Source: an uncultured Pelagibacteraceae bacterium (GTDB lineage Bacteria; Pseudomonadota; Alphaproteobacteria; Pelagibacterales; Pelagibacteraceae). From it: a stretch of 64,000 nucleotides of DNA. Under the pieces are notes generated by a model. The model did no database searches and was not told the origin of the DNA. It saw only the letters and a program-made list of their open reading frames with translations. A program made the translations under genes and the position numbers. Position 1 is the stretch's first letter, and every line of letters begins with the position of its first letter. Positions 17,585 through 62,953 of the stretch are shown one piece after another. Location: NCBI GenBank assembly GCA_902524955.1, contig CABZEY010000001.1, positions 1 through 64,000 of the forward strand, written 5' to 3'.

Positions 17585-18191
17585 GAGAAAATTAATATTT
17601 TATATATGGTGTTTGGTTAGCATAATACAAGTTTCAGCAGAAGCAAAAATCAAAGTTATGCTTTTTGGGGATAGTTTAATGGCAGGTTATGGTTTAACCC
17701 AAAATCATCATCTTGATAAAGTTTTACAAAAAAAATTTAAGGAACAAAATATCATTTTTGTTAACGCTAGTGTAAGTGGCGATACCTCTAAAGGAGGGTT
17801 AGATCGATTAGATTGGTCTCTTGATGAAAAACCATATCTTATTTTTTTATGCCTTGGGGCTAATGATATGTTAAGGGGAATTCGTCCTAGTGTGACAAAG
17901 GATAATTTAGAAATGATAATACAAAAAATAAAACAAAAAAAAATTAAAATTATTCTCGCTGGAATGAAGGCTCAAGAAAGTTATGGCGTAAGTTACACAA
18001 AACAATTCAATTCAATTTATCCAGAACTATCAAAGAAATATAAGATTACCCTATACCCTTTTTTACTAGAAGGTGTTGCATTAAAACCTAAAATGAATCT
18101 ACCTGATGGTAAACATCCAAATTTAATAGGAGTTAAAGAAATTGCTAATCGTATATATCCTATAATTAAAAAAGAAATTTTTGAAAAATAG
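17577..18191 (+). CDS. tesA: SGNH-family arylesterase / lysophospholipase (TesA-like)
   Basis: MLFGDSLMAGYGL, NASVSGDTSKGG, LGANDMLRG, LPDGKHPN; divergent from ybbA-like gene. Confidence 0.88.
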   Translation: MLMRKLIFYIWCLVSIIQVSAEAKIKVMLFGDSLMAGYGLTQNHHLDKVLQKKFKEQNIIFVNASVSGDTSKGGLDRLDWSLDEKPYLIFLCLGANDMLRGIRPSVTKDNLEMIIQKIKQKKIKIILAGMKAQESYGVSYTKQFNSIYPELSKKYKITLYPFLLEGVALKPKMNLPDGKHPNLIGVKEIANRIYPIIKKEIFEK

Positions 18192-27046: not shown

Positions 27047-27679
27047 ATGTGCGGTCGCTATTCAATTACAAAAGTAGTAAAAAAAACAAAAAATATTGTT
27101 CAAAATAATGAAGGTGTCGAGAACTCAGATAATTATAATGCATATCCAACCCAGCAGCTTCCAATAGTAAAAAAAGATGAAGATAGTTTGACTTTGACAA
27201 ATTATCATTGGGGATTGGTTCCAAAATGGTCTGAAAAAATGACAGATTTTAGACCTCTTAATAATGCTAGGTTAGAAACATTAATGGAAAAAAGAACTTT
27301 TAGTGGTTTAATCAAAAGTCAAAGGTGTTTGGTCCCTGCAGATGGATATTACGAGTGGAGAAAAAATGAAGAAGGTAAAAAATTTCCTTACTTTTTTAAG
27401 CGTGAACATAATGAAACACTCTTTCTCGCTGGTCTTTATCAAAAAAATAATAATTTAGAATTTTCTATTATAACGACAACAGCTAAAGGCGAAATTTCAG
27501 ATATTCATCATCGTATGCCAGTCATTTTAAAAGAAGAAGAAATAAAAAATTATTTGGACTCAAAAGACCCAATGACATTTTTAAAAAGTCATCAAAACCC
27601 AGAAATAGTGTTTTATGAGGTAGGAAGAGATGTCAATAATCCATCAAACAATCATATTGGACTTTTAGATCCTGCATAA
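27047..27679 (+). CDS. SOS response-associated peptidase (YedK/HMCES, SRAP)
   Basis: MCGRYS N-terminal catalytic Cys, NNARLET, YEWRK, HHRMPVIL. Confidence 0.93.
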   Translation: MCGRYSITKVVKKTKNIVQNNEGVENSDNYNAYPTQQLPIVKKDEDSLTLTNYHWGLVPKWSEKMTDFRPLNNARLETLMEKRTFSGLIKSQRCLVPADGYYEWRKNEEGKKFPYFFKREHNETLFLAGLYQKNNNLEFSIITTTAKGEISDIHHRMPVILKEEEIKNYLDSKDPMTFLKSHQNPEIVFYEVGRDVNNPSNNHIGLLDPA

Positions 27680-27723
27680 AAAAACTCCGCTAATAACCGT
27701 TCTGAAGAACAGCTAATGCGGAG
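27678..27723 (-). terminator. Rho-independent terminator, minus-strand direction
   Basis: 27718-27723 pairs with 27685-27690, then U7 on minus strand (27684-27678). Confidence 0.65.
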
Positions 27724-27935
27724 CTTTAGTTGCCGTGTGATTTAAGCACTACTCCCACAGCGTACTTAGAGGCGTCGAAGTGCTACCTTCCCTCTACTTT
27801 CACCACCAAGCAATTAGCCTAAGCCTCCTTCTTGATGAGTGCTGAGAACTTACGCCCTCAGTTAATTTCAACATATCCTTAACGTAATCAAAAGGGTATC
27901 TCCGTGTGGTTGATTCTGCGCATGGTCTGTGAAAA
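27680..27935 (-). ncRNA. Candidate structured non-coding RNA with terminator
   Basis: Several hairpins, interleaved 6-bp helices (27745-27750/27779-27784 and 27767-27772/27791-27796), terminator CTCCGC...GCGGAG followed by U7 on minus strand; 5' boundary approximate. Confidence 0.55.
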
Positions 27936-27942
27936 GTGTGGA

Positions 27943-28386
27943 TTATTTTTTTCTCCTAAAATCCCAGGGATATTGAAAATCCATTGACCACAAACCTAAC
28001 TTATTTTTTTTTGCAAAATTTTCGTCTTCTACAAATTTCTTAGAATATCTACGGTAAGCAAAAGCATAGCCGTTTTTAACCAGAAACTTTGATAAGCTCT
28101 CATCATTAACGTAACATTCTGCCACTACTCTTTTGTAACGATCAATTGCTACTTTTTTACAATTAACCTTTTTATCTCCAATTTTTTCAATTAACTTTTG
28201 CTTTGATAGCTCTCCACATTTAACGTTTTTATTATTTTCTTTGCAAATTTGTGAAATTTCTGGAGCATCGATGCCATGAAAACGGTATTTTACTTTCGCA
28301 ATGTGAATTGTATCTCCATCTAATATTTTAATATTTTGGGCATGAAGTGTTGAGCATATAAAAAAAAGTAACAAAAAATGCTTCAT
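27943..28386 (-). CDS. Thermonuclease (SNase) family protein
   Basis: ILDGDTIHIAKVKYRFHGIDAPEISQ, RYKRVVAECYV, NGYAFAYRRYSKKF. Confidence 0.88.
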   Translation of the reverse strand: MKHFLLLFFICSTLHAQNIKILDGDTIHIAKVKYRFHGIDAPEISQICKENNKNVKCGELSKQKLIEKIGDKKVNCKKVAIDRYKRVVAECYVNDESLSKFLVKNGYAFAYRRYSKKFVEDENFAKKNKLGLWSMDFQYPWDFRRKK

Positions 28387-29014: not shown

Positions 29015-30469
29015 ATGATTAAAAATTTTGGATTTAAATTTGATAATACATATGTTGATTTGCCTGAAATTATGGCAACAAAACTGCCTCCAGTTGCAGT
29101 AAAAAAACCAAAATTAGTTGTTCTTAATCAAACACTAGCTGACTCTTTAGGATTAGACTTTTCTGAAAATACAGATGAATTAAATGCGGAAATATTATCA
29201 GGTAACAAATTAATTGAAGGATCTTGCCCACTTGCACAAGCTTATTGTGGCCATCAGTTTGGTCACTTTGTTATGTTGGGAGATGGACGTGCAATTTTAT
29301 TAGGAGAGCATCTAGATCCAAAACAACAGCGTTGGGATATTCAATTAAAGGGTTCTGGCAGAACGCCTTATTCTAGAGGAGGTGATGGTCGTGCTGCATT
29401 AGGTCCAATGCTAAGAGAGTACATTATTAGTGAGGCCATACATTTTTTAAATATTCCAACCACAAGAAGTTTAGCTGTTGTTACAACGGGTGAGGATGTT
29501 TTAAGAGAAACAAATTTAAAAGGGGCGGTGTTGACTCGTGTAGCCTCTTCTCATTTAAGAGTAGGAACTTTCCAATACATTGCAGCAAAGCAAGATATTT
29601 CTGCTCTAAAAACTTTGGTAGATTATGCAATTCAAAGACATTACCCAGAATTAATTAATGCAGAAAATAAAGCTATTGCACTTTTTAGTGCTGTAATGAC
29701 AAGGCAAATTAATCTTATTGTAAATTGGATGAGAGTTTCTTTTATTCATGGCGTGATGAATACGGATAATATGTCAATTTCTGGCGAGAGTATTGATTAT
29801 GGCCCATGTGCATTTATGGATCACTATGATACTAAAACTGTTTTTAGTTCCATTGATCATTATGGTCGTTACGCTTATGGAAGCCAGCCTGTAATTGGCC
29901 AGTGGAATTTAGCAAGATTTATCGAAAGCTTGTTTCCACTTATAGATCGAGATGGAAAAAAAGCTGAGAAAATTGCAAACGATTTAATAGCAAATTACGA
30001 AGATTTATTTGCCAATGCATTTCATAAGATGATGAAAAATAAACTCGGCATGATTTCAGATGAAGATCAAGATAAACGTATGATGACCGACCTATTTAAA
30101 TTAATGCACAAAAACCAAGCTGACTACACTAATACCTTTAGATATTTAATTAATGGAAAATTTCCTCAAGAAAAATTACTAAATGATCCTGATTTTATTA
30201 TCTGGGAAGCTGAATGGAAAAAAAGATTATCAAAAAATCAAAATAGTGAGGATGCTTATAAGTTAATGATTAAATATAACCCAGTGTTTATTCCAAGAAA
30301 TCATAAAGTTGAAGAAGCTTTATTTGAAGCAGAAAAGGGAAATTTTTCTAAGTTTTTGTTACTATGTAAAATTATAAAAAAACCATATGATGAGGATCTT
30401 AATCAAGAAGATTATACAAAGCCAGCACCAGCCTCTAATCGTGTGTATAAAACTTATTGTGGAACCTAA
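29015..30469 (+). CDS. selO: SelO/YdiU (UPF0061) protein adenylyltransferase
   Basis: CGHQFGHFVMLGDGRAILLGE, QLKGSGRTPYSRGGDGRAALGPMLREYIISEA, HGVMNTDNMSISGESIDYGPCAFMD, C-terminal KTYCGT. Confidence 0.95.
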   Translation: MIKNFGFKFDNTYVDLPEIMATKLPPVAVKKPKLVVLNQTLADSLGLDFSENTDELNAEILSGNKLIEGSCPLAQAYCGHQFGHFVMLGDGRAILLGEHLDPKQQRWDIQLKGSGRTPYSRGGDGRAALGPMLREYIISEAIHFLNIPTTRSLAVVTTGEDVLRETNLKGAVLTRVASSHLRVGTFQYIAAKQDISALKTLVDYAIQRHYPELINAENKAIALFSAVMTRQINLIVNWMRVSFIHGVMNTDNMSISGESIDYGPCAFMDHYDTKTVFSSIDHYGRYAYGSQPVIGQWNLARFIESLFPLIDRDGKKAEKIANDLIANYEDLFANAFHKMMKNKLGMISDEDQDKRMMTDLFKLMHKNQADYTNTFRYLINGKFPQEKLLNDPDFIIWEAEWKKRLSKNQNSEDAYKLMIKYNPVFIPRNHKVEEALFEAEKGNFSKFLLLCKIIKKPYDEDLNQEDYTKPAPASNRVYKTYCGT

Positions 30470-62848: not shown

Positions 62849-62856
62849 AATTTTAA

Positions 62857-62953
62857 GCGGGGAACTGAATAATAACCTGAAAAATTTACGGTACGGCTGC
62901 TTTCTTTCGAACCTGACCGGATTAACGTAACATCCACCTATTATCAATTCCCC
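62857..62953 (-). ncRNA. ffs: Bacterial small SRP RNA (4.5S)
   Basis: Minus strand CCGGTCAGGTTCGAAAGAAAGCAGCCGTACCGT is the conserved SRP domain; GGGGAA.../...TTCCCC closing stem; upstream of dnaX. Confidence 0.92.

Follow-up and report, generated by a model that had tools for sequence, protein, structure and literature searches.

The stretch of DNA analysed here (the window) comprises 64,000 nucleotides from a SAR11 (Pelagibacteraceae) genome of the same genus as HIMB114. In the gap between a staphylococcal nuclease homologue and a convergent SRAP (HMCES/YedK-type) gene lies an IMES-2 gene; IMES-2 is a small structured RNA previously catalogued from ocean samples (Rfam RF02035). When the whole window was searched with cmscan, the IMES-2 model matched the minus strand from 27868 to 27730 with a score of 80.4 bits (E 1.3e-18; gathering score 54.7 bits), and model positions 1-141 were aligned over this interval, making the match full-length. 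IMES-2 was one of two above-threshold matches in the default Rfam scan of the window, and when the surrounding region was scanned permissively a single further match appeared, a meaningless RNase P assignment of 8.6 bits on the terminator hairpin. A first-pass annotation had put the gap forward as a candidate marine structured RNA, either IMES-like or new. The former description was borne out, whereas the latter fails by that annotation's own test, according to which a significant Rfam match makes the RNA known rather than novel. Features of the locus are collected in Table 1. The window also encodes a SelO-family protein adenylyltransferase (PF02696) at 29015-30469 on the plus strand.

Table 1. 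Positions of the IMES-2 gene, its structural elements and its neighbours in the window.
Feature	Position	Strand	Basis or remark
Staphylococcal nuclease homologue, upstream neighbour	27943..28386	-	Pfam PF00565; terminates shortly before IMES-2
Upstream box A, TAATCCACActTTTCACAG (relatives TTATCCaCAnnATTCACA)	27927..27945	-	Upstream alignment and information profile
Upstream box B, AATCAACcacacggaGATACC (relatives TCAACnAnnAAGTGATAC)	27895..27915	-	About -35 and above; upstream alignment and information profile
Putative -10 element, TATGTT	27870..27875	-	Conserved TATGaT/TGaTat column block immediately 5' of the model match
IMES-2 RNA, conserved core	27730..27868	-	cmscan RF02035 and alignment
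Stem-loop P1	27842..27861	-	Helix 27842-46/27857-61; GNRA-type tetraloop, GUAA here
Stem-loop P2 with inner hairpin	27801..27841	-	Alignment, covariation, fold
Stem-loop P3	27767..27796	-	Stem 27767-72/27791-96; alignment, covariation, fold
Kissing helix, P3 loop side, AGCACU	27779..27784	-	Covariation in relatives
Stem-loop P4	27732..27761	-	Stem 27732-27740/27753-27761, including one position that is conserved but not Watson-Crick
Kissing helix, P4 loop side, AGUGCU	27745..27750	-	Covariation in relatives
Intrinsic terminator hairpin	27681..27727	-	Fold z -6.0
SRAP (HMCES/YedK-type) gene, downstream neighbour, convergent	27047..27679	+	Pfam PF02586

The window copy has the stem order and spacing of the family model and scores above its gathering threshold, but it is a divergent member. 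Its 80 bits compare with about 135-166 in most Pelagibacteraceae members, the inner hairpin of P2 is short, and the kissing loops read AGCACU/AGUGCU instead of AGCGCU/AGCGC. Among named genomes, its nearest relatives are HIMB114 and other Pelagibacteraceae; these bacteria are marine, in agreement with the oceanic origin of the family. The copies in HIMB114 (L225/L049) and in the metagenome-assembled genome CC_bin40 (L224/L033) come from the same genus and share the upstream nuclease gene and the loop sequences with the window copy, and CC_bin40 shares the convergent SRAP gene as well; both differ from it in the sequences of P2 and of the terminator stem. The earlier judgement that this RNA is not 6S RNA, RNase P RNA, SRP RNA or tmRNA also holds. 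Like alpha-proteobacterial tmRNA, IMES-2 is a structured RNA gene outside protein-coding sequence, but the genome has a separate tmRNA gene (alpha_tmRNA, RF01849) on another contig (G000:C3:13495-13797), and according to ARAGORN the window itself contains neither a tRNA nor a tmRNA. A bacterial small SRP RNA (RF00169, 53.9 bits) is located at 62856-62953 of the window on the minus strand. For 6S RNA (RF00013), no match was found in the local region even at E<=10, nor anywhere in the genome, whose assembly is about 85% complete.

The predicted transcript of 192 nucleotides folds better than all 200 shuffled versions of itself (z -4.86), and its structure is supported by covariation. Covariation was assessed in an alignment (A1) of 39 IMES-2 members. 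For the 44-pair structure, in which the nested part comes from the family's own model and the kissing helix lies outside that part, 94.6% of cells are paired, 31 pairs show changes on both sides, and the covariation score is 0.483. The corresponding means for shuffles are 80.4%, 19.0 and 0.195, and sliding the partners by 1-3 columns lowers pairing to 32-42% and both-sided pairs to 10-12. Two hairpins recognized earlier from the letters proved to be P1, which is paired in 100% of cells with both-sided changes in four of seven pairs and carries a GCAA or GCGA tetraloop in relatives, and P2 (27804-27810/27831-27837, extended by 27801-27803/27839-27841), which is 94.6% paired with both-sided changes in nine of 11 pairs. 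The outer helix of P3 reaches 97.9% with such changes in all six pairs. P4 shows compensatory changes too; its pairing is held down to 88.6% by a single column pair that lacks a standard base pair in every member.

Two interleaved six-base-pair helices had been read in the first-pass annotation as an H-type pseudoknot. Both helices are real, one being the P3 stem and the other pairing the P3 loop with the P4 loop, but the topology is better described as a kissing interaction, P4 having been missed. A simple H-type pseudoknot lacking P4 accounts for the existence of both helices, yet P4 is conserved with compensatory changes, so that the second helix is a loop-loop contact, and the simpler topology is extremely improbable. 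Covariation thus indicates that the P3 and P4 loops are joined by a kissing helix of 5-6 base pairs: 98.5% of its cells are paired in the 39 relatives, with compensatory changes in three of five pairs and the other two invariant. The loop pair AGCACU/AGUGCU occurs in the genus of the window and in L047, and AGCGCU/AGCGC in most members; other combinations are AGUGCU/AGCAC (L036), AGUACU/AGUAC (L061 and L043) and UCGCU/AGCGA (L046). The clearest exception to complementarity is L040. The two loops of the window copy are not self-complementary, and loop-to-loop rather than homotypic pairing is therefore the conserved feature, although the P3 and P4 loops may instead pair in trans between two molecules.

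The 3' end of the gene is formed by the intrinsic terminator that had been noticed earlier, and this hairpin alone folds with a z of -6.0. Its U run (27678-27684) shares positions with the stop codon of the SRAP gene, which converges on it. As judged by eye, the conserved core is followed by a hairpin and a U-rich tail in all 66 distinct members listed. A consensus terminator scanner called nothing at 27681-27727, a miss that is probably due to the interrupted stem. At the 5' end, alignment of 95 distinct upstream regions revealed a conserved -10-like block, box B at about -35 and box A further upstream. A scan with the sigma-70 consensus called no promoter upstream of IMES-2, so the promoter assignment, including the probable -10 element, is drawn from conservation. 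Box A consists of two 9-bp half-boxes arranged end to end that resemble DnaA boxes. When about 0.86 Mb of SAR11 DNA was scored for it, the sample's two IMES-2 copies gave the top sites, and no site outside IMES-2 loci in that DNA matched equally well.

Two other elements of the first-pass annotation map wholly or partly to this upstream region and did not survive comparison. A proposed hairpin (27873-80/27892-99) sits 5' of the RNA, in sequence overlapping the promoter region, and is not retained in relatives; folding of the surrounding stretch does not exceed chance (z +0.47). A direct repeat, CCGTGTG, has one copy in the 3' strand of P4 and the other in an upstream box; the closest relatives (L033 and L049) lack it, and it is probably a coincidence. 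We also considered IMES-2 as a marker of the replication origin, given the likeness of box A to DnaA boxes, and rejected this idea on the basis of GC skew sampled in two complete genomes. The IMES-2 gene of one (G001) is at 303 kb, away from the negative-to-positive switch at about 150-180 kb, and that of the other (G015) is near the positive-to-negative switch, on the terminus side.

IMES-2 has different neighbours in different genera. The nuclease and convergent SRAP genes (both assigned by Pfam) flank it in the genus of the window, and the closest relatives of the window's nuclease in named genomes are those of the Pelagibacteraceae genome CC_bin40 and of HIMB114. In both of these and in two more close relatives, IMES-2 directly follows the nuclease gene. 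In other genera an mnmA-like gene is located upstream, and in the largest genus a tyrosine recombinase gene (Pfam) and an ogt-like gene flank the RNA (the mnmA and ogt names were read from sequence). An arrangement of this last kind, with the ogt-like gene next downstream on the same strand in one genus, is what a cis-acting leader, riboswitch or attenuator of the adjacent gene would present. However, the downstream SRAP gene is convergent here, the neighbours differ between genera, and a terminator intervenes in the members examined. Orientation and context thus largely refute a cis-acting role, to which we attach hardly any credence. The combination of a conserved promoter region, a terminator and variable neighbours points to an independent trans-acting RNA and not to a riboswitch.

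Among the 397 genomes of the order that were searched, 200, belonging to six of 13 genera, each carry a single copy of IMES-2. None of the 397 other genomes of a phylum sample carries it; among the 399 genomes of that sample, only that of the window and one congener do. Weak additional matches fall below the cut-off, at a laxity where control genomes also yield matches, and a partial match in one genome (G230) was set aside as a contig end. A model rebuilt from the 39 members found nothing significant in any of 20 IMES-2-negative genomes tested, and the absences are probably real within the reach of that model. About half of the order has no detectable IMES-2, and the function is therefore dispensable or replaced. 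Inspection by eye of the gap between the recombinase and ogt genes in IMES-2-negative genomes disclosed no obvious replacement RNA. Likewise, a search of such genomes for a box-type promoter driving another RNA gave few pattern matches, barely more than a reversed-pattern control, and those inspected by eye were without box A.

No functional study of IMES-2 was found among the open-access papers searched, although the wider literature may differ, and the consulted portion of a paper on structured RNAs of P. ubique HTCC1062 (PMC2704228) makes no mention of it. On balance, we favour the view that IMES-2 is an independent gene with its own promoter region and terminator whose four stem-loops and kissing helix form a trans-acting, protein-binding RNA of regulatory or scaffold type. 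The analysis establishes the family identity, the structure with its kissing helix, the terminator, the conserved upstream boxes, the taxonomic range and the independence from neighbouring genes; transcription, protein binding and regulation are what we infer. Transcription would start from the conserved promoter region, could be controlled through the two upstream boxes, and would yield a transcript of about 190 nucleotides ending at the intrinsic terminator. The original IMES-2 reports are said to have described it as an abundant expressed RNA. The product would fold into four stem-loops, P1 bearing a GNRA-type loop, and a helix of 5-6 base pairs would lock the P3 loop to the P4 loop. We prefer a trans-acting, protein-binding role because the fold is compact, the unpaired bases are few and conserved, and the neighbours are variable.

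Other trans-acting roles can be weighed against the same features. The size of IMES-2, its own promoter region and its strong intrinsic terminator would suit an sRNA that regulates mRNAs in trans by base pairing and whose terminator U tail would bind a chaperone. However, the candidate seed loops are paired to one another, and the conserved sequence is mostly in stems or GNRA-type loops. Given this pattern of conservation and the contact between loops, we rank a protein-binding RNA above a base-pairing sRNA, the latter seeming unlikely to us. IMES-2 might alternatively do the job of 6S RNA by binding RNA polymerase, since it is a free-standing, independently terminated bacterial RNA of similar size, and RF00013 was found neither in the window's genome nor in any of the 117 SAR11 genomes searched, even though the same search recovers 6S RNA in Caulobacter. 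Yet IMES-2 does not match the 6S model, covariation and folding give several hairpins and a kissing helix rather than one long hairpin with a central bubble, and in about half of SAR11 neither RNA is detectable. A polymerase-binding role of this type is therefore more doubtful still. A trans-acting, protein-binding RNA remains the reading that we prefer.

Two isolated cases, one of them an incomplete contig, suggest a relationship between IMES-2 and mobile elements. A viral contig of 17.8 kb (IMGVR_UViG_3300025082_002624; L354/L359/L360) has an IMES-2-like stretch at its end (17701-17817), where the 3' half of the RNA adjoins genes for a tyrosine integrase (phrog_1, PF00589) and a primase-like protein. 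From CCGAGAGG onwards, the first 30 bases are 97% identical to a host member (L036), and the 5' pairs of P1 and P2 are broken. This 3' half, which starts at CCGAGAGG, suggests a possible attachment site within the IMES-2 gene. In the second case, a chimeric IMES-2 in a host genome (G191; L043, 1500-1640), the 5' half of the RNA is 98.6% identical to its nearest relative (L065), the 3' half shares no more than 65% identity with any other member, and the terminator differs too; the kissing loops are still complementary. Both cases would fit integration into the RNA gene with replacement of its 3' half, as occurs in tRNA genes. We tentatively suggest, at somewhat less than even confidence, that IMES-2 is a recurrent integration target for SAR11 mobile elements, comparable to tRNA and tmRNA genes, that the integrase of an element recombines inside the RNA gene, and that the replacement 3' halves brought in by such elements reshape P3 and P4 while the kissing contact is kept.

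Other viral matches were less informative. No known phage was found to carry IMES-2, the pattern behind the matches numbered L244-L323 was only loosely specified, and those in L356 and L357 are chance occurrences in GC-rich phage DNA. The reading frames of these two contigs appear to be broken by TAG codons, and the phage possibly reads TAG as an amino acid. Another contig (L355), possibly an assembly chimera, has at its end an IMES-2 fused to a gene for a phage-like methylase. Separately, a tyrosine recombinase is encoded in 26 of 28 SAR11 genomes tested (L171, L176, L177 and L193 among others), including a copy in the window's own genome (G000:C2:27209-28120). A dif-like palindrome with the core GATAACAATTAATTATC is often present by the start of its gene. 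In G001 and G015 the gene maps close to the terminus indicated by GC skew. The recombinase and palindrome constitute a candidate single-recombinase Xer/dif system; a fuzzy search for dif-like sites was unreliable, as it missed a site visible in L183.

IMES-2 resides in Rfam without a known function, and SAR11 bacteria, including the cultured strain HIMB114, are a place for testing what it does. The kissing helix provides a concrete tertiary contact for structural work, the conserved upstream boxes offer a handle on regulation, and the absence of the RNA from half of the order supplies natural comparisons. If IMES-2 does serve as an integration site, this would link this structured RNA to the evolution of mobile elements in a bacterial group that is among the most abundant in the ocean.
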